Below, piece by piece: positions 305-34,972 of a stretch of 34,972 nt of DNA. Below the pieces are notes generated by a model. The model did not search any database. It was not told the origin of the DNA and saw nothing but the letters and a program-made list of their open reading frames with translations. The translations under genes and the position numbers were made by a program. Source of the stretch: an uncultured Pseudomonadota bacterium (GTDB taxonomy: Bacteria; Pseudomonadota; Gammaproteobacteria; Methylococcales; Methylomonadaceae); contig CAINHP010000041.1 of NCBI GenBank assembly GCA_903848905.1, positions 1 through 34,972 of the forward strand, in the 5' to 3' direction. Position 1 is the first letter of the stretch. Every line of letters begins with the position of its first letter.

Positions 305-740
305 GGTTCATCCTCAATTAGATTTGCTTTGTTATTGTTATTTTTATTTTTTACTACACACCAAGTATGAGTGCTTTTGCATTTTACCCGTTTTAACTCT
401 AAGGTAAAGGGTCGTTTTTCACAATACCATTATATTTTGCGTTTTATATGCCAAAAAATTTAACTTTTCCATATTATGACCGATAAGCACGTGAAGGGTT
501 CTTGTAGAATAACTTAACATGACACGTTAAATAGGTAGTAGGTTATTTTAGAAATGTGACCCTATATTTTCTAATATTTTCATGATAAAACGTTTTTTAT
601 TATTAATATACTTTTCTTTGCAATGATATACATTGAATTACACATAATTTTACCTAAATAACGAAAGTATCTGCTTGCGTAATATTGAGGCAAATGACAA
701 AATAAACGTGTTTATTTTCCAAACCTAAAAGGAGATTGAT
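305..740. other. Intergenic region between divergent genes
   Basis: These 436 AT-rich bases separate the leftward repeat protein from the rightward small peptide gene. I see no convincing ORF, only promoter-like AT stretches. The only clear structure is the palindrome at 700-717, listed separately. Promoters for both flanking genes must lie here, but no -35/-10 pair is good enough to call. Confidence 0.6.
700..717 (+). promoter_or_regulatory. AT-rich palindrome just upstream of the 65-residue peptide gene
   Basis: The arms AAATAAAC (700-707) and GTTTATTT (710-717) are perfect inverted repeats around a 2-base centre. They end about 11 bases before the Shine-Dalgarno of the gene starting at 741. 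The element could be an operator or a small RNA hairpin. A different palindrome occupies the equivalent place before the related peptide gene at 31332. Confidence 0.5.
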
Positions 741-938
741 ATGATTAGTAGTGGTTTAGGCTTAGGTATTCCAACGATTGCACAAGTTATTCGTGTAATA
801 AACAATCCACAGCCAGTAAATTTTAATGTTGGCACACCAAATTTAGAAGCCGCTAACACAGGGTCTTCTTCTGCGGGTAGTGTTAGTGCTGCGGGCGATT
901 GCGCTTCATGTGGTGGATCATTTAGCGCTTCAGCGTAA
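741..938 (+). CDS. Small Gly/Ser/Ala-rich peptide with C-terminal CxxC (possible precursor peptide)
   Basis: This is a 65-residue ORF behind an excellent ribosome-binding site (AAGGAG, 6 bases before ATG) and followed 17 bases later by a strong terminator, so it is a monocistronic unit. Residues 1-26 form a non-basic, aliphatic N-terminus (MISSG, IPTIAQVI at 10-17, QPV at 24-26). Residues 27-65 are Asn/Gly/Ser/Ala-rich and end in GDCASCGGSFSASA with Cys54 and Cys57. There is no classical signal peptide. A second peptide in this window (31332-31517) shares the N-terminal pattern, with IPTI, Q and QPV in the same order, which argues that both are real. A leader-like N-terminus followed by a small-residue core with Cys and Ser resembles precursors of modified peptides (RiPPs), but no maturase, protease or transporter is adjacent. 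It could instead be a structural or surface peptide. Function unknown. Confidence 0.75.
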   Translation: MISSGLGLGIPTIAQVIRVINNPQPVNFNVGTPNLEAANTGSSSAGSVSAAGDCASCGGSFSASA

Positions 939-955
939 ATTAAATGATTTATGTT

Positions 956-997
956 AAAGCCTTGTGTGTTTTCAACGCATTCAAGGCTTTCTATTTT
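956..997 (+). terminator. Rho-independent terminator of the 65-residue peptide gene
   Basis: The arms AAAGCCTTG (956-964) and CAAGGCTTT (982-990) pair perfectly, with extra TGTG/CGCA pairing inside, followed by CTATTTTT. It starts 17 bases after the peptide's stop codon and lies in the convergent gap to the leftward gene ending at 1010. Confidence 0.85.
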
Positions 998-28687: not shown

Positions 28688-28917
28688 AATTGTAGGCTAC
28701 GCAAATTAGTTATAGCAGAACATTAATCACAATCCATTATTCAAACGAAAACATCAAATAATCCGCCCATTTTGATTATGTCTTCCAAATTGCATGGCAA
28801 TACATGCGTTTAAGCCCTCTCACCCACTTTAAAGCATCGATAAGCTGTATCCCCCTATTTATCAAGCTATTCGCTATAGTTACTCAGAGCATGACTGAAC
28901 GCACTTTGTAAAAAAAA
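28688..28917. other. Intergenic region upstream of the peroxidase gene
   Basis: Part of the 339-base gap between emrB and the peroxidase gene. No ORF or strong hairpin was found before the CRP-like site that starts at 28918. A terminator for emrAB is expected but not obvious. Confidence 0.5.
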
Positions 28918-28933
28918 TGTGAACTGCGTCACA
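28918..28933. promoter_or_regulatory. Perfect CRP-type site upstream of cytochrome c peroxidase
   Basis: TGTGA (28918-28922), ACTGCG spacer, TCACA (28929-28933): both half-sites match the CRP/Vfr consensus exactly. The flanking A-rich left side and TTTT right side also fit. It lies 94 bases upstream of the start codon, in a good place for activation of the peroxidase promoter. It is not an FNR site (TTGAT-N4-ATCAA). Confidence 0.6.
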
Positions 28934-29026
28934 CTTTTGGAAAATTTATCAGAATTACGAACTGTTGCACTATAAACTTTTTTCAGCTGTTTAATATTAA
29001 ATTAAAAAGAAACAAGGATAAATATT

Positions 29027-30313
29027 ATGAAAAAGCTATTATTAACCTTCTCCTGTGCCGTCTTTAACTTAACTGCGTACTCAGCTGTTCCCTTAACACC
29101 GGAACAACAATTAGGGGAAGCCCTTTTTAAAGATAAAAACTTATCATTTAACCATAATCAATCTTGTGAAACATGCCACAGCCTAAATCCCATTCCGTCA
29201 CTTAAAGGCGTTCAAGGAATTGTGCCGGGATTTGTTGACCCCAGTAACGTCAAAGGTATATCTCCCATTTCAGTTGGCTCAATTCCACGGACAACTGGAA
29301 CACTTAATGCACCAAGCATTGCTTATGCGAGCTACAGCCCAGAATTTGGCTGGGATGAAGATGAACAAATTTATGTAGGTGGGCAATTTTGGAATGGCCG
29401 AGCAACAAATTTAATTGAACAAGCAAAAAAACCTTTACTCAATCCTGTTGAAATGGCGATGCTCGATGAACTCGATGTTGTTAATAGAATAAAATCCAAT
29501 CCTAAATACATCAAAGATTTCCAAAAAATCTACCAACTCAATATCTCCGATACCAGTTCAGACAAAGCAATACAAGACACCTACACTGCTCTCGCTAAAG
29601 CGATTAGTGCCTTTGAGCAAAGTGGAACTTTTAATAAATTCAACTCAAAATTTGACTATTATTTAGCTGGAACCACCCAATTAAGCACTACGGAGAAAAA
29701 AGGATTAGATTTATTTCAAGGAAAAGCAGGCTGTTCGGGTTGCCATAAAATGGATGTGACAGTGGACAGTAATGGAAACACCATTCCACCTCTGTTTACC
29801 TACTTTGGTTACGACAATATCGGACTGCCCCGCAATATGGCTATTCCAGGCAATCCCTTTGCAGACCTAGGGTTAGGTGGACGCGAAGGTATTCCACAAA
29901 CTGAAATTGGTAAACACAAAGTGAGATCGTTGCGTAATATCGATTTGACACCACCGTATGGTCATAATGGGATATTCAACAATTTAGATGATATGGTACA
30001 TTTCTATAACACGCGTGATGTATTGAAAAAAGTCAAAGATAATAACTCCCCTGAGTTTGCAAAAACCGCTTGGGCAGCACCTGAAATTTCGTCAAATATG
30101 AATACCACGCAAATAGGTAATTTGGGACTTAGCATAGTCGAAGAAAAAGCCATCGTTGCCTTTTTGAAAACGTTAACCGATGACTATCCATTATGGGGAA
30201 ACAATCCTGTTGCTGTTAGTACAAAAGATGGTCGTGTTCCTGAAAATTCGCCACCCCCTATTATCTCAACAAAAAACATGCCTACATTGAAAATTCCAGT
30301 TCGGATTAAATAG
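29027..30313 (+). CDS. Dihaem cytochrome c peroxidase (CcpA/MauG family)
   Basis: 428 residues behind SD AAGGA. It has a signal peptide (residues 1-20) and two c-type haem motifs, Cys47-x-x-Cys50-His51 and Cys236-x-x-Cys239-His240. Conserved family segments are LNAPSIAYA, FWNGRA, LNPVEMAM, HKVRSLRNIDLTPPYGHNG and FLKTLTDDYP. It reduces hydrogen peroxide in the periplasm with electrons from small cytochromes. A MauG-like biosynthetic role is less likely without a methylamine dehydrogenase nearby. The protein is longer than classical CcpA (about 340) because of a C-terminal Pro-rich tail (SPPPIIST) and inserts after the first haem. CRP-type control is suggested by the site at 28918. Confidence 0.92.
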   Translation: MKKLLLTFSCAVFNLTAYSAVPLTPEQQLGEALFKDKNLSFNHNQSCETCHSLNPIPSLKGVQGIVPGFVDPSNVKGISPISVGSIPRTTGTLNAPSIAYASYSPEFGWDEDEQIYVGGQFWNGRATNLIEQAKKPLLNPVEMAMLDELDVVNRIKSNPKYIKDFQKIYQLNISDTSSDKAIQDTYTALAKAISAFEQSGTFNKFNSKFDYYLAGTTQLSTTEKKGLDLFQGKAGCSGCHKMDVTVDSNGNTIPPLFTYFGYDNIGLPRNMAIPGNPFADLGLGGREGIPQTEIGKHKVRSLRNIDLTPPYGHNGIFNNLDDMVHFYNTRDVLKKVKDNNSPEFAKTAWAAPEISSNMNTTQIGNLGLSIVEEKAIVAFLKTLTDDYPLWGNNPVAVSTKDGRVPENSPPPIISTKNMPTLKIPVRIK

Positions 30314-30462
30314 TGATGCTTGATTATGAACCCGCTACACTTACTAAGACATAAATTTTGTAAAATAGTCTTACCAAAATGAGGTGTCAAATCTGACAAC
30401 GATAACAATTTAGTTGCAAATTCCAAGAACACTACGGAAACAATTTTTCAATTTACATAGAT

Positions 30463-30503
30463 TTGACCTTATACCATGATCATTTTTCATGGTATAAGGT
30501 CAA
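30463..30503. repeat. Perfect 17-bp inverted repeat (long hairpin)
   Basis: Arm TTGACCTTATACCATGA (30463-30479) is the exact reverse complement of 30487-30503, with a 7-base loop TCATTTT. There is no following T-run, so it is not a standard terminator. It may be a transposon or MITE remnant, a recombination site, or an mRNA 3'-end structure for the peroxidase gene 150 bases upstream. Confidence 0.9.
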
Positions 30504-30660
30504 TCTTTCTCATCAAGCGTCCAATACGCCGACGACTGACCCCTTCACCCCACTCTCGCAACTCACGCTGAATGCGCAATCAAGTGGACTATTAGCAACA
30601 CAAACCAAAAAGCACTTGCTCGAACTCACTAAAAAACTCCCTACAGCGGCCAAAATATGA
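30504..30660 (+). pseudogene. Possible 3' remnant of an unidentified gene
   Basis: A frame open from the hairpin (30463) to a TGA at 30660 gives a C-terminal-looking, polar, Thr/Leu/Lys-rich sequence (FTPLSQLTLNAQSSGLLATQ; HLLELTKKLPTAAKI) with a higher GC content than the surrounding DNA. There is no start codon with an SD, and part of the frame is the hairpin itself. It may be the tail of a gene whose front was lost at the inverted repeat. Family not recognised. Confidence 0.3.
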
Positions 30661-30798
30661 CAATCATCCAACTATTTATTCAAAAACAATCCAACCATTG
30701 AAAATACTATCAATGTCATAGATGAGCGCTCAAGCATGACAAATCATCGACTTCAATAATCTTCGAAAATATTGAATCAAACTATCAGATTAAATCCA

Positions 30799-31056
30799 TT
30801 ATTCATCATAGATACCATCGTCGATTTCAACATCATCGTGATATTCGTCACGATACGTCCCCCCATAAAGTCCCGCTGACTTTGTGAGCTTTTTATCTTG
30901 TTCATCATCTTCAATGGAATCGTCTGAAGCAAAATGCAGATGCGCGAATTGATTGGCTAAAAAAATATATTTCTGATTTTTATACAGAAAACAACCAAAT
31001 CTATCAGTATATAAACCAATCACACCTTTACCGCGCGGTAATGCTTGTGAATTCAA
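30799..31056 (-). CDS. Hypothetical 85-residue acidic protein, perhaps 5'-truncated
   Basis: The frame begins just after an in-frame stop and has only TTG (31056) or internal GTG as possible starts, without an SD. The N-terminal half is aromatic and strand-like (GVIGLYTDRFGCFLYKNQKYIFLANQFAHL). The C-terminal half is very acidic and Tyr-rich (YRDEYHDDVEIDDGIYDE). No family recognised. A decayed gene that has lost its beginning is as likely as an intact one. Confidence 0.35.
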   Translation of the reverse strand: MNSQALPRGKGVIGLYTDRFGCFLYKNQKYIFLANQFAHLHFASDDSIEDDEQDKKLTKSAGLYGGTYRDEYHDDVEIDDGIYDE

Positions 31057-31130
31057 AAATAGATTAATTCAACTTTATTGGCATTGATTATGCTGAATTA
31101 AATACATCATATAGCTTTCCCACTCCGTAG

Positions 31131-31160
31131 CCTCTTCATTTTATGTTAGAGGTTTTTTTT
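31131..31160 (+). terminator. Orphan terminator-like hairpin upstream of the 61-residue peptide gene
   Basis: CCTCT (31131-31135) pairs with AGAGG (31148-31152), followed by eight T, then GA and eleven T. No rightward gene ends just before it, so it may close a small RNA or the remains of a lost gene. Confidence 0.5.
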
Positions 31161-31250
31161 GATTTTTTTTTTTGACGTATCAAATTAAATAATTTTTAAC
31201 CCTACAATAGTACTAACCTTAGCCGATACAGTTAAGTCACGCTGAACAAA

Positions 31251-31275
31251 GCAAACGGATGAGAATCCCATTTGC
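31251..31275 (+). promoter_or_regulatory. GNRA-looped hairpin in the leader of the 61-residue peptide gene
   Basis: GCAAA-c-GGAT (31251-31260), tetraloop GAGA, ATCC-ca-TTTGC (31265-31275): nine base pairs with a small internal mismatch. It lies 57 bases upstream of the ATG. A compact GNRA-capped stem suggests a structured 5' UTR. Confidence 0.4.
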
Positions 31276-31305
31276 TATTTGGTGTGATAAAAGTATGGTT
31301 GCATG

Positions 31306-31318
31306 TTGTTATTAACAA
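31306..31318 (+). promoter_or_regulatory. Palindrome just before the SD of the 61-residue peptide gene
   Basis: TTGTTA (31306-31311), T, TAACAA (31313-31318) is a perfect inverted repeat ending 3 bases before the SD TGGAG. It is a candidate operator or translational switch, similar in placement to the palindrome before the 741 gene. Confidence 0.4.
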
Positions 31319-31331
31319 TTTGGAGAATAGA

Positions 31332-31517
31332 ATGATAAATTCATCAGTCATTCCAACCATCTCGCAAACCATTAGTTCATTAAACCAACCTGTTTTAGTT
31401 AAACCTAATGAGGTTGTTGCTGCAATTACTCCCACAAAGATCGTTGCAGCTGTATCCACTAATGTTAGCGTGGATATGGGAACGTCAAGTTCCCATTCGA
31501 TTAATACACACGCCTAA
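31332..31517 (+). CDS. Small 61-residue peptide related to the one at 741-938
   Basis: ATG at 31332 follows SD GGAG by about 7 bases; an upstream in-frame start at 31272 has no SD. The N-terminus repeats the pattern of the peptide at 741: MINSS, IPTISQTI (residues 7-14), then N and QPV (19-21). The rest is Val/Ala/Thr-rich (EVVAAI, KIVAAVS) and ends in a Ser/Thr/His tail (MGTSSSHSINTHA) with no cysteine. No basic signal peptide. It is followed 28 bases later by a strong terminator, so it is a single-gene transcript. Function unknown. The shared leader-like half and divergent C-terminal half would suit precursor peptides or small structural peptides; no processing enzyme is beside it. Confidence 0.7.
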   Translation: MINSSVIPTISQTISSLNQPVLVKPNEVVAAITPTKIVAAVSTNVSVDMGTSSSHSINTHA

Positions 31518-31544
31518 TATTTAGCGAGATGTTTTTTTAAGAGG

Positions 31545-31580
31545 TAGCCTTGTTTATTGACTTAGACAGGGCTATTTTTT
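31545..31580 (+). terminator. Terminator of the 61-residue peptide gene
   Basis: TAGCCTTGT (31545-31553) pairs with ACAGGGCTA (31566-31574) with a single G-U pair and is followed by six T. Its AGCCTTG/CAGGGCT sequence resembles the terminator after the related peptide gene (956-997). Confidence 0.85.
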
Positions 31581-31673
31581 AACTCATCAATTATTGCATT
31601 GCAGCACAATTTTACTATCACACCATTACGACAATAACGCTTAAGTCTTTACAAAAAAATCATCTCAGTATTT

Positions 31674-31985
31674 TTACAATAATTTTTTAATTGGATATTG
31701 GTTAGAATATTCATCAACTCTTTTTTTTAATTCTTTTCCTGTTCTAAAACGTACAACATGCCTTGCCCTAATTAAGAGTGCTACACCAGTTTTTGGATTA
31801 CGCCCCATAATAGCTTCCCTCTTTAGTATAAAAAAGTTGCCAAATCCTCTAATGTGTACCTGTCCACCTGCTCCTAATTCTTCAATCATACTTTCAATTA
31901 TGACATTAACTGCAGCTTCAACAACCGAATTTGATAAGAAAGGGTATTTCTTGGCAATATTATCGATTAATTCAGATTTAATCAT
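31674..31985 (-). CDS. IHF/HU-family DNA-bending protein (IhfB-like)
   Basis: 103 residues with the full HU/IHF fold: IKSELIDNIAKKYPFLS helix start, VVEAAVNVIIESMIEEL, VHIRGFGNFF, the GRNPKTG arm with the intercalating Pro (61-67) and VRFRTGKELKKRV. It looks closer to IHF beta than to HU. It bends DNA in recombination, replication and transcription. The sequence departs from the highly conserved housekeeping IhfB (LKREAIMGR, LLIRARHVV), and the gene sits among orphan genes rather than after rpsA. It is therefore probably an accessory paralogue, perhaps of mobile-element origin. Its start overlaps the end of the preceding gene by 8 bases, so the two are co-translated. Confidence 0.9.
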   Translation of the reverse strand: MIKSELIDNIAKKYPFLSNSVVEAAVNVIIESMIEELGAGGQVHIRGFGNFFILKREAIMGRNPKTGVALLIRARHVVRFRTGKELKKRVDEYSNQYPIKKLL

Positions 31986-32220
31986 TGTCGTATAAATCCC
32001 ATGTATGCTGCTGGCTGGAAGATAATCTTAATTTTCCATTTATAATCATAGTATTAATTTGAGTGTAAATTCGTTCAGATGAGTCATCACTATTAAGTTT
32101 TTTATCAAGAATTGCAGTTGCCTTATCAGGAACTGTAATACTATTGAGTGGAATTCCTATCTCAATCAATTCTTGACATGCCTGTACAATGCAAATTTCA
32201 GCTTGTTTATCATTATTCAT
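31978..32220 (-). CDS. Hypothetical 80-residue protein coupled to the IHF-like gene
   Basis: Starts with MNNDKQAEICIVQACQELIEIG and continues as a small mixed helical protein (PLNSITVPDKATAILDKKL; SSERIYTQINTMIINGKLRLS), predicted soluble. The 8-base overlap with the IHF-like gene supports both being real and co-expressed. The spacing of helices around IYTQINTMIINGKL could suit a small winged-helix or DNA-associated protein, but I see no motif to confirm this. SD is weak. Confidence 0.6.
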   Translation of the reverse strand: MNNDKQAEICIVQACQELIEIGIPLNSITVPDKATAILDKKLNSDDSSERIYTQINTMIINGKLRLSSSQQHTWDLYDND

Positions 32221-32782
32221 ATTAATTTTTCTTATTTTTATTGAACTTTATGACCGTTAATGCAGTAATAACTGAGATGCTGTTATGGGAGTTTTAACTA
32301 ATTAAAGGTGTGTACTAAACAAAAATACGTCTCTTCTCCGCGAATTATAGCTATTTATAACTTTCAAATTTATCCATTACAACCTAGCGAAGTAACGCTT
32401 ATATCATTATTAAATCGCCCTACCCTGTTCAGTCTAATTTCTAAAAGCTTGCACCAAATTGATACTGTTATGCAATCTCTTGATAAAGCAATTTTCCAGT
32501 AACATTTAATGTTTTATACTTAAAATGAGAATTTTTCAAAATTGTTTTCAAATTCTCGTCAGTCATTTTTTGTTTTGCAACGCTTGTATAAACCAAACAA
32601 TACAGCAACATTTTAATTTTCTCTCGATTGATTATAGTCTAGACTCAATTTGAAAAATTCAGTCAAGGATTAGCTTTTAATTTCTCGGTTTAAACCTAAA
32701 TAATCTTCAAAACAATTAATTTTAAATCTGTTGTGGATTGGATATTCAGCAAAATCTCAATTGACTTGTTGAACCTATATCC
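32221..32782. other. Long low-coding AT-rich region
   Basis: 562 bases with no convincing gene. A 64-codon frame at 32308-32502 starts with GTG without an SD and looks like chance. One 8-bp inverted repeat (GAGAATTT at 32527-32534 / AAATTCTC at 32550-32557) is present. The composition suggests decayed DNA. Confidence 0.5.
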
Positions 32783-32923
32783 TTACTTGTTTAACAGTGC
32801 TGATGTAGCAGTTAAAATTGACATCACAGTATAGGCAAAAACAGCTGCATAATGATGCTCAATTACTTCCACACCGAGCAAACATGACAATGGGACTAGT
32901 AAAATAAGCATGACAATACGCAT
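32783..32923 (-). CDS. 46-residue hydrophobic membrane peptide
   Basis: The ATG at 32923 has a near-perfect ribosome-binding site (CAGGAGT, 7 bases spacing). The 46-residue product is two hydrophobic stretches (IVMLILLVPLSCLLGVEV, then AAVFAYTVMSILTATSALL) around a polar EHH turn, with a short Lys end: a small two-helix membrane protein or a signal-anchored peptide. Similar shapes occur in type I toxins and small regulatory membrane proteins, but there is no antisense RNA or antitoxin that I can point to. Family unknown. Confidence 0.65.
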   Translation of the reverse strand: MRIVMLILLVPLSCLLGVEVIEHHYAAVFAYTVMSILTATSALLNK

Positions 32924-32984
32924 TTATTAACTCCTGAGTTACTTTCATTTTATCGCTCGGTACTTATTCACGTTTTGTTCTTAG

Positions 32985-33263
32985 TCAATTTCTTGAAACT
33001 CGTCCTTGATCCAAAAGATATTCTGCGTGTTTTTCCGCTTCTTCAGGTGTTTTCCAAAAACCACCTTGCCTTGGTTTCCAATTATTCTCGGCTGATGCAA
33101 TTGCATTTTCTAACGAAGAATACGGTTCATATTCACTACCTTCAAGGGAGGTATAAAAATAGTTTTCCTCATTTTTATAAAACCAAATAGGATAAGCACC
33201 ATAACTACCCACGCTATAATAAGTGCAAATATCGTCTTGTTCGTCAGTTAACATAAAGGCCAT
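32985..33263 (-). CDS. Hypothetical 92-residue protein
   Basis: From the ATG at 33263 (an upstream TTG at 33269 is also in frame). It is a soluble acidic protein rich in Tyr and Trp: DEQDDICTYYSVGSYGAYPI; NEENYFYTSLEGSEYEPYSS; NNWKPRQGGFWKTPEEAEKHA. The pattern of short aromatic strands followed by a PEEAEKHAEYLL helix looks like a small compact domain. I do not recognise it. No clear SD, but composition and codon usage look real. Confidence 0.55.
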   Translation of the reverse strand: MAFMLTDEQDDICTYYSVGSYGAYPIWFYKNEENYFYTSLEGSEYEPYSSLENAIASAENNWKPRQGGFWKTPEEAEKHAEYLLDQGRVSRN

Positions 33264-33310
33264 ATTCAATGAATTTAATTAAAATGAGTTATAAGCTGAA
33301 TATTGAAGTT

Positions 33311-33349
33311 AAAAAACTCTCAATGCTTAAATAAATAAAACATTGAGAG
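33311..33349 (-). terminator. Terminator of the His-rich peptide gene
   Basis: Perfect arms CTCTCAATG (33317-33325) and CATTGAGAG (33341-33349). On the minus strand the hairpin is followed by six U (33311-33316). It lies about 105 bases downstream of the leftward gene ending at 33454. Confidence 0.75.
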
Positions 33350-33453
33350 CAGAGGAATATAACTACTTAATTTACAAGGGGCATAACAATACAGTGTTAT
33401 TTTTAGAAAATTTTATAATTTTTATATGTCAGCTTGGTGAATATTTATAATTT

Positions 33454-33594
33454 TTACTTATTGTGCTTGTGATCATCCGAATGATCATGATCGTGTTCAT
33501 GGTCTTCTTTATGTTCATCAGAATCCCTATGATCATGACTGTGGTCATGTGAGTGTTCATGATCGTGTTCGTGTAAATGTTGTGATTGTGTCAT
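33454..33594 (-). CDS. 46-residue His/Asp-rich metal-binding peptide
   Basis: Preferred start ATG at 33594 (weak SD GAGAAG, 8 bases). The frame is open further upstream, but that part lacks an SD and has different composition. The peptide has 16 His among 46 residues, mostly in HxH/HDH alternation with Asp and Glu (HEHDHEHSHDHSHDH; HDHDHSDDHKH). Such tails bind Ni, Zn, Co or Cu, as in HypB, SlyD, Hpn and ZIP/CDF transporter loops. Here the whole protein is the tail, as in the small nickel-storage proteins. hypF in the same window suggests nickel use by the cell, but they are 25 kb apart. It could also be a periplasmic or cytoplasmic zinc buffer. A terminator follows. Confidence 0.7.
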   Translation of the reverse strand: MTQSQHLHEHDHEHSHDHSHDHRDSDEHKEDHEHDHDHSDDHKHNK

Positions 33595-33741
33595 TTGAAT
33601 CTTCTCATAACTTATTATTAAATATGAATAAATTGACTTTGGCGTGATTAATTTGCAAGAAATCAATTTTCAACATAAAATATCACTATTGAGTAGTGAG
33701 ACGACTTTATACAATAGGATTATGACATTTTGATGTATTTT

Positions 33742-34251
33742 TTATTGTTCATCCAACTTAGTGATCGTAGTAAAATCAGCATACGAATAATCACCTACAG
33801 CCTTAATATATTGCTTTAGCTTTTCGACTTTTGTTCTTTCACCTATTAACAAAAGCTTTTTTCTAATATTCTCATGGGCAAAATTGCCATGAAGTAAATA
33901 ATTCATATCAATTTCAAAAATATTTTTTATAATTGATTGATTATCAAAAATAATTTTAGTTTTGTAACTTTCATACATGTTTGTTTTACCTTGATTTAGG
34001 CATTCCTCAATTACAAAATCTTCATCAATATCTGAAAATAACTCAGAATTCATATTTTCACTTTGGATCAATATCTCCTTAGCAATTAATCTTGCTTTTA
34101 TCGCATTATTAATATGGAGTAAAAAACTTTCTCCTCGAAATTCTTTGTCATTAATTCGCTCAACGGTGCATATAACATAAGATGGAAATGAGGAAAAACT
34201 CGTTTCAACTGCAAAAATTCTAATATTTTCGAACTGCATTTTCGTTTTCAT
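33742..34251 (-). CDS. Hypothetical 169-residue protein
   Basis: ATG at 34251 with SD TAGGT about 7 bases upstream. A soluble, mixed alpha-beta protein (MQFENIRIFAVETSFSSFPS; ECLNQGKTNMYESYKT; GNFAHENIRKKLLLIGERTK), without signal, membrane helices or known motifs. Codon usage is very AT-rich like its neighbours. It looks like an orphan gene of the accessory region; no function can be assigned. Confidence 0.6.
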   Translation of the reverse strand: MKTKMQFENIRIFAVETSFSSFPSYVICTVERINDKEFRGESFLLHINNAIKARLIAKEILIQSENMNSELFSDIDEDFVIEECLNQGKTNMYESYKTKIIFDNQSIIKNIFEIDMNYLLHGNFAHENIRKKLLLIGERTKVEKLKQYIKAVGDYSYADFTTITKLDEQ

Positions 34252-34769
34252 GATTTACCTAAATTAATAACATAATTTAAATTCATTCCTGTATAGCTAA
34301 CGCGGTACAAAGTGTGAGAAGTAAATTCTTGAAAATTCTTTTTCTTAAGCACCTATAACGCAAAGCATTATCTATCTTATTATATCGCTTTAGTTATCCA
34401 AGTCTTGCGCATGTAAATTAACACAATAAAAGTAAGTATACTAATGATTTCGATATCAAGGTGATGTTGCGTAGCTTAAATGAATGTTTTTCGTCATTAG
34501 AAGCGGCAAAGACCACCAATGAAATATCGATGCCCTTATCCGCATTCCCAAGCAAAAAACACCATCCAATATGACAATTTAAATTTTTCATTTTCCGCCA
34601 CTTTTGATCGTGCAAAAGTACATCCCCTATTTGGGTGAAGATTACCTGTTTATTTTTGTGTATAATTAACTTGAGTTAAATTAAATATAACTCTGATTTC
34701 TTTGTACATGACAAAAAACAGAACATGTTGAAATAGTTCATAATATAGATTTTACGAAGAGATTGAAAA
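34252..34769. other. Non-coding or decayed region before the transposase
   Basis: 518 bases. A leftward frame is open from about 34670 to 34418 (fragments HDQKWRKMKNLNCHIGW, ADKGIDISLVVFAAS) but has no good start and may be a gene broken by the insertion. The left end of the IS must lie here, but its inverted repeat cannot be identified without the other end. TATAAT at 34659-34664 could be the -10 box for the transposase. Confidence 0.4.
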
Positions 34770-34972
34770 ATGAACCAAATCAACGGGCTTTCAGCGATAT
34801 TAAATGAAAAATTCCAATGGAACAAAGCAAGAATGGATTGCTTTGCCAGAATGCTTGTTGGAGTGATTAAAGCGAGAAGCGTCAACTTAACTGAAATCGC
34901 ATTGATGTTTTCAGGTACGGCGAAGATGGAATCTAATTATCGCCGTATTCAACGATTCCTGCATGATTTCAA
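34770..34972 (+). mobile_element. IS4-family transposase, N-terminal part (runs off window)
   Basis: The ATG at 34770 opens a frame to the window end (67 codons seen). The sequence NEKFQWNKARMDCFARMLVG, then VIKARSVNLTEIALMFSGTA and SNYRRIQRFLHDF, matches the N-terminal domain of IS4-type DDE transposases, which bind the IS ends. The catalytic part is outside the window. A moderate SD (GAAGAGA) precedes it. The element marks the accessory nature of this end of the window. Confidence 0.85.

Follow-up and report, generated by a model that had tools for sequence, protein, structure and literature searches.

The ORF at positions 31332-31517 of the DNA analysed here is a real gene for a mostly unstructured 61-residue protein of a methane-oxidising bacterium, and it belongs to a family of solitary genes that is restricted to one genus. 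Judging from its sequence, and with a confidence that we would place a little short of even, the gene product is a small and largely disordered protein that belongs to the late flagellar (sigma-28, FliA) regulon or descends from a member of it. The window, that is, the whole stretch analysed, comprises positions 1-34,972 of CAINHP010000041.1 (GCA_903848905.1), from an uncultured Methylomonadaceae bacterium; the genus is one of the Methylococcaceae and includes the isolate UBA10906. The features of the window that enter the argument are these:

31332..31517, + strand: gene for a 61-aa protein of the B subfamily, with an ATG start (sequence, profiles)
31322..31325, + strand: Shine-Dalgarno sequence GGAG, 6 nt 5' of the ATG (sequence)
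31222..31229, + strand: sigma-28-like -10 box GCCGATAC, 7 of 8 positions, with a similar box in each of the four B genes
31236..31288, + strand: predicted 5'-UTR hairpin of 53 nt, the palindrome of the original prediction (z -2.6)
31537..31582, + strand: intrinsic terminator hairpin with a T-run (z -5.9)
741..938, + strand: related 65-aa gene of the A subfamily, ending in CASCGGSFSASA, without the tail motif (profiles)
956..990, + strand: terminator hairpin of the 741 gene (z -3.5)
700..717, + strand: palindrome AAATAAACGTGTTTATTT upstream of 741 (sequence)

The original prediction, made from the window alone, had joined the two ORFs 741-938 and 31332-31517 in one peptide family, and both are present as it described them (65 and 61 aa). 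When the shared N-termini (26 residues of the 741 peptide and 21 of the 31332 protein) are aligned globally, the score is reached by none of 20000 shuffles, and BLASTP gives the pair alone an E value of 6e-4; the full-length local score of the pair is reached by about 0.17% of shuffles, or by 0.48% when the halves are shuffled apart. Profiles were run against 706 frames of the window and 10000 shuffled decoys. A profile of 16 members from other genomes ranked the 729-938 frame first (3.6e-26) and the 31263-31517 frame second (1.3e-10), with the next window frame at 0.17 and the best decoy at 0.049. The profile of the C subfamily alone also recovers both genes (741 at 1.1e-16 and 31332 at 9.3e-7; best decoy 0.0056), and the B profile, built without 31332, recovers 741 at 6.4e-6 (best decoy 3.3e-4). 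The A profile alone finds 31332 merely at 0.023, barely better than the decoys (0.08), and the relation between 741 and 31332 therefore runs through the C members.

The predicted scatter of several copies with a common N-terminus also holds beyond the window. The bacterium's own genome (2.49 Mb in 278 contigs, 96% complete) carries three copies, namely 741, 31332 and C124:16864-17046, the last 77% identical to 31332; a fourth match, at E 0.46, was not counted as a member. A 19-row profile searched over 311 genomes of the order found 19 members, spread over 14 of the genus's 18 genomes. The genomes of the genus in which no member was found are G005, G009, G010 and G012, the match in G009 (E 8e-4) having been dropped because it lies inside a 355-aa protein. 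Among the 293 genomes of the order outside the genus there was no clear member, the one match that passes E 0.01 being in G206, at 0.0015. Fifteen of 32 early loci were looked at, and inspection by eye rejected L007, L009, L023, L029 and L031 as false. The observation of a peptide family is thus confirmed, and the interpretation first placed on it is partly supported, as set out below.

Family members share the N-terminal segment PTIxQ..NxP and fall into three subfamilies. The A subfamily (741 type) occurs in four genomes and ends in SFSASA or similar; the B subfamily (31332 type) has four genes in three genomes, lacks Cys and ends in SI[DN]TH[AV]; the C subfamily has eleven genes, with Cys in eight, and ends in [IV]D[TSA]x[AV]. 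For four A pairs dN/dS lies at 0.06-0.12 and for three C pairs at 0.05-0.25; in five of these seven dS is close to 1 or higher, and hence saturated. The B pairs give 0.33, 0.61 and 1.40, the last for the paralogues 31332 and C124, which differ by few changes; on the sequences, this value of 1.4 also fits relaxed selection.

The 31332 protein itself consists of an N-terminal IPTIxQTI..N.P, a low-complexity middle and the C-terminal tail SINTHA. Structure prediction returned a mean pLDDT of 60 and a single helix at residues 10-17, which is too weak for a fold search. The expected ribosome-binding signals are in place, with GGAG before 31332 and, by eye, SD-like sequences before family members. 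Terminators, computed for the two genes of the window, follow both of them as predicted, and the AGCCTTG likeness between them is probably due to chance, since that heptamer occurs six times in the window, a number reached by 11 of 100 shuffles. Likewise, a palindrome does stand upstream of each gene, and it is not the same element: 31332 has the 53-nt hairpin at 31236-31288, 741 the short AAATAAACGTGTTTATTT at 700-717. Stem-like sequences reminiscent of the 31236-31288 hairpin recur by eye in other B genes, with differing letters and length, and the corresponding upstream hairpin of the C124 copy is not more stable than shuffled sequence (z -1.1). A gene of the di-heme cytochrome c peroxidase/MauG family (29027-30313), the best NCBIfam match of which is the MbnH family, below its cut-off, lies about 1 kb upstream of the 31332 gene.

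The C-terminus is where the original picture of a conserved leader and a variable core gives way. The tail [ILV][DN]xx[AV]-COOH closes 15 of the 19 family members and 1 of 252 long control ORFs, and the middle of the protein is a low-complexity linker. The pattern was written after the sequences had been seen, and the end is part of the PF14070 model, which makes the rate in controls (1/252) the informative number. A Gly directly precedes the tail in 10 of the 19 family members, 13 of 14 YjfB rows, all 11 rows of the proteins from related genera described below, and none of the 252 controls. The 741 peptide is a relative of the 31332 protein that has neither the tail nor a sigma-28-like box.

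As read from the sequences, the tail is common to three sets of proteins that are otherwise dissimilar: small proteins of related methanotroph genera, PF14070 (YjfB) and E. coli FlxA. The weak match outside the genus, in G206, is a 57-aa protein that ends in GGTIDTHA, and a query with it gave 25 matches in 23 of 237 genomes of the taxonomic family. Of the 18 matches read, 17 end in IDTYA, INTYA, IDVRA or the like, and L118 has no tail; seven (L114, L119-L124) were left unread. These MSSVSGVG...IDTYA-like proteins of about 57 aa, from other genera of the same taxonomic family and with no Pfam match, resemble the 31332 family in the tail and differ from it in their N-terminus and in a DADGDNDGSKG middle; good sigma-28-like promoters stand in 12 of their 15 distinct upstream regions. 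YjfB_motility (PF14070), a putative motility protein, resembles the family in its length of about 55-70 aa and in a C-terminal G..[ILV][DN]xx[AV], to the [ILV][DN]xx[AV] part of which the SINTHA of 31332 conforms; 12 of 29 YjfB genes have a sigma-28-like promoter. YjfB has a central KKAMDIQ segment that is absent from the 31332 family. PF14070 matches 52 of 370 genomes of the class, 42 of them over the cut-off. From these 52 genomes we took 30 YjfB loci, leaving out four rows of other frames, and all 29 readable ORFs among the matches listed end in [ILV][DN]xx[AV], L145 having yielded no sequence. Finally, E. coli FlxA has a tailed end like the family's, GTIDIYV, and a FliA site upstream, but at 110 aa, with a Gln/Glu/Lys-rich middle, it is unlike the 31332 peptide. 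FlaG was considered as a further bearer of the tail and set aside, the sole FlaG found ending in GSLLQTKA, outside the pattern.

Every row of the two comparison alignments has the tail (A7, 14 of the 29 YjfB sequences; A8, 11 of the 17 tailed sequences from related genera). Yet profile comparison of the family with YjfB gives 2.6%, with the tails not even aligned; with the related-genera set it gives 22.4%, over the last 17 columns only, and the tail may consequently be convergent. YjfB against the related-genera set gives 10.6%, again at the tail. Homology to YjfB or FlxA was thus tested and not found, 31332 is not filed as a member of either, and our claim is limited to a protein that may work like them. 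Direct searches were made as well: Pfam has no match for the 31332 peptide at E 1, nor at E 10 for three other members, one of B type; NCBIfam returns a single match at E 0.19, far below its cut-off, and Rfam nothing at gathering thresholds. PF14070 has no match in the bacterium's own genome in a search that matched the B. subtilis control. PF14282 is over the cut-off in none of the 18 genomes of the genus, a weak absence given that the same search missed the E. coli control, although hmmscan does match E. coli FlxA to PF14282. A phage origin was also considered and rejected: PHROGs gave two weak matches, at E 0.07 and E 0.09, and each concerned a single one of the 19 members. A scan of viral contigs with alignment A4, whose five rows are all A or C members, yielded 129 pattern stretches and no relative; plasmids matched neither 28900-34972 nor the G206 relative. 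In a literature search of limited scope we found no paper mentioning both FlxA and YjfB, and on that limited search the shared tail is apparently unreported.

The second line of evidence comes from promoters, scored over 12 positions as TAAA-N14..16-GCCGATAA in the 200 nt upstream of each gene (220 nt for YjfB). Of the 15 distinct upstream regions of the proteins from related genera, 12 score 10 or more and 10 score 11 or more; the 18 control genes of the same loci include one that reaches 10 and none that reaches 11. Among the 29 YjfB genes, 12 reach 10 and four reach 11, compared with none of 37 controls at 10 or above. The upstream region of E. coli flxA has a score of 11, and a published list contains its FliA site (PMC4183435). 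YjfB is grouped with sigma-28 in one sub-module in PMC11607428, which calls it "an uncharacterized small protein". The four B genes score 10, 10, 11 and 10, and 8 of 162 controls reach at least 10. Their -10 boxes, at 7, 8, 7 and 8 of 8 positions, lie within a block conserved among the four upstream regions, and a -10 box of at least 7/8 within 150 nt is found in 4 of 4 B genes against 11 of 162 controls; the four genes form two pairs of relatives and do not amount to four independent cases. A good -35 (4/4 of TAAA) is present in one B gene only, that of G014; the -35 of the 31332 gene is weak (TACA, 3/4 positions, spacing 15).

A comparison of upstream regions for a common promoter motif, as the original prediction had proposed, showed that no single one serves all subfamilies. 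In the A and C subfamilies, a score of 10 is attained by two of the 15 genes. GTTTATA[TC] stands at -53 to -60 in 5 of the 11 C genes (L063, L034, L064, L016 and L062); it is promoter-like. The 741 type has neither this motif nor a sigma-28-like -10, so that regulation differs inside the family. Among the flagellin starts of the genus, 7 of 14 (ten loci) carry TTAAAGTAAC-N10-GCCGATAA at about -110 to -125, and the other seven, including L091, the one examined in the bacterium's own genome, have no such box within 220 nt. All 18 genomes of the genus have flagellin, and its presence thus provides no discriminating test.

In the gene neighbourhoods of 18 places (3.4-35 kb each), the ORFs of 60 aa or more include no neighbour common to all subfamilies. 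Signal-transduction proteins form one loose group at 10 of the 18 places, which we take as chance from a large family. The C124 copy has on one side a gene read by eye as triosephosphate isomerase and on the other the remains of a flagellin gene, beyond which come flaG and then an intact flagellin. The remains lie downstream of the C124 copy, at L067:9047-9653 on the minus strand (contig G000:C124), in two frames by eye and with the N-terminus missing; the intact flagellin is at L067:6124-7770. In G014 the same isomerase gene adjoins the B copy and no flagellin was seen there, so the flagellin side of C124 proves nothing. Next to the 741 gene, at 1010-2212, is a gene for the ABC substrate-binding protein of a PQQ alcohol dehydrogenase system (TIGR03863). 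This gene adjoins the A-type peptide gene in all four genomes, the window's copy being the one assigned to TIGR03863 and the other three being grouped with it by BLAST; one C gene has the same gene about 5 kb away.

What else could such a gene be? Perhaps the strongest competitor, though we consider it unlikely, is a set of genus-specific orphan proteins unconnected to flagella, for which tail and -10 box would both be coincidences. It would accommodate the missing profile homology to YjfB, the different upstream motif of five C genes and the half of the examined flagellin starts that lack the box, as well as the abundance of the box itself, which has 40 matches in the window (at most one mismatch) against 26.6 expected from shuffles. 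Coincidence is hard to reconcile, however, with a tail so much more frequent in the family (15/19) than in control ORFs (1/252), and with a -10 box upstream of every B gene that few controls share.

Two other readings are both quite improbable in our view. The tail may be a turnover signal (ClpXP, Tsp or the like) that shortens the life of small sigma-28 proteins, and no docking ligand. The A or V at the end is part of the pattern, and the low order predicted by the model (mean pLDDT 60) would suit such a signal. A degron of the ClpXP or Tsp kind would need less than the I/V-D/N that is conserved further in, and this counts against it. Hardly different in probability, and if anything slightly lower, is the reading in which the gene encodes the precursor of a peptide that is secreted or modified (RiPP, microcin or pheromone), with a conserved leader and a variable Ser/Gly/Cys core. 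Solitary small genes would fit a precursor, as would the Cys within a Ser/Gly-rich end such as CASCGG in each of the four 741-type members and in eight of the eleven C members. Against it, the B members, 31332 included, have no Cys, the C-terminal end is the conserved part, and no gene adjoins all subfamilies. Moreover, of the two peptide-processing genes that were searched, YcaO is found in none of the 18 genomes of the genus and peptidase C39 in 5 of 18, not including the bacterium's own. A RiPP precursor was given up as the main reading after these enzyme and neighbour searches. Taken together, the tail and the promoters point to swimming rather than to a bacteriocin-like peptide.

If the late-flagellar reading is correct, sigma-28 RNA polymerase would transcribe the 31332 gene once the hook is complete. 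The free tail would then serve as a docking ligand for a motility-related partner, which might be the export gate, a chaperone, or a cap or stator factor; a second contact would come from the helix-forming segment near the N-terminus. With both contacts, the protein could be a flexible tether, or could modulate how the flagellum is assembled or used. A broader proposal, which we regard as possible but rather doubtful, is that unrelated late-flagellar small proteins (YjfB, FlxA and the two methanotroph families) carry one C-terminal tag, [ILV][DN]xx[AV]-COOH, read by a single conserved motility partner. Selection would in that case keep the tag and not the body, and each genus would consequently have a body sequence of its own. 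Should YjfB, FlxA and the lineage-specific proteins indeed be united by the tag, a pull-down with the tail could give several orphan families a function.
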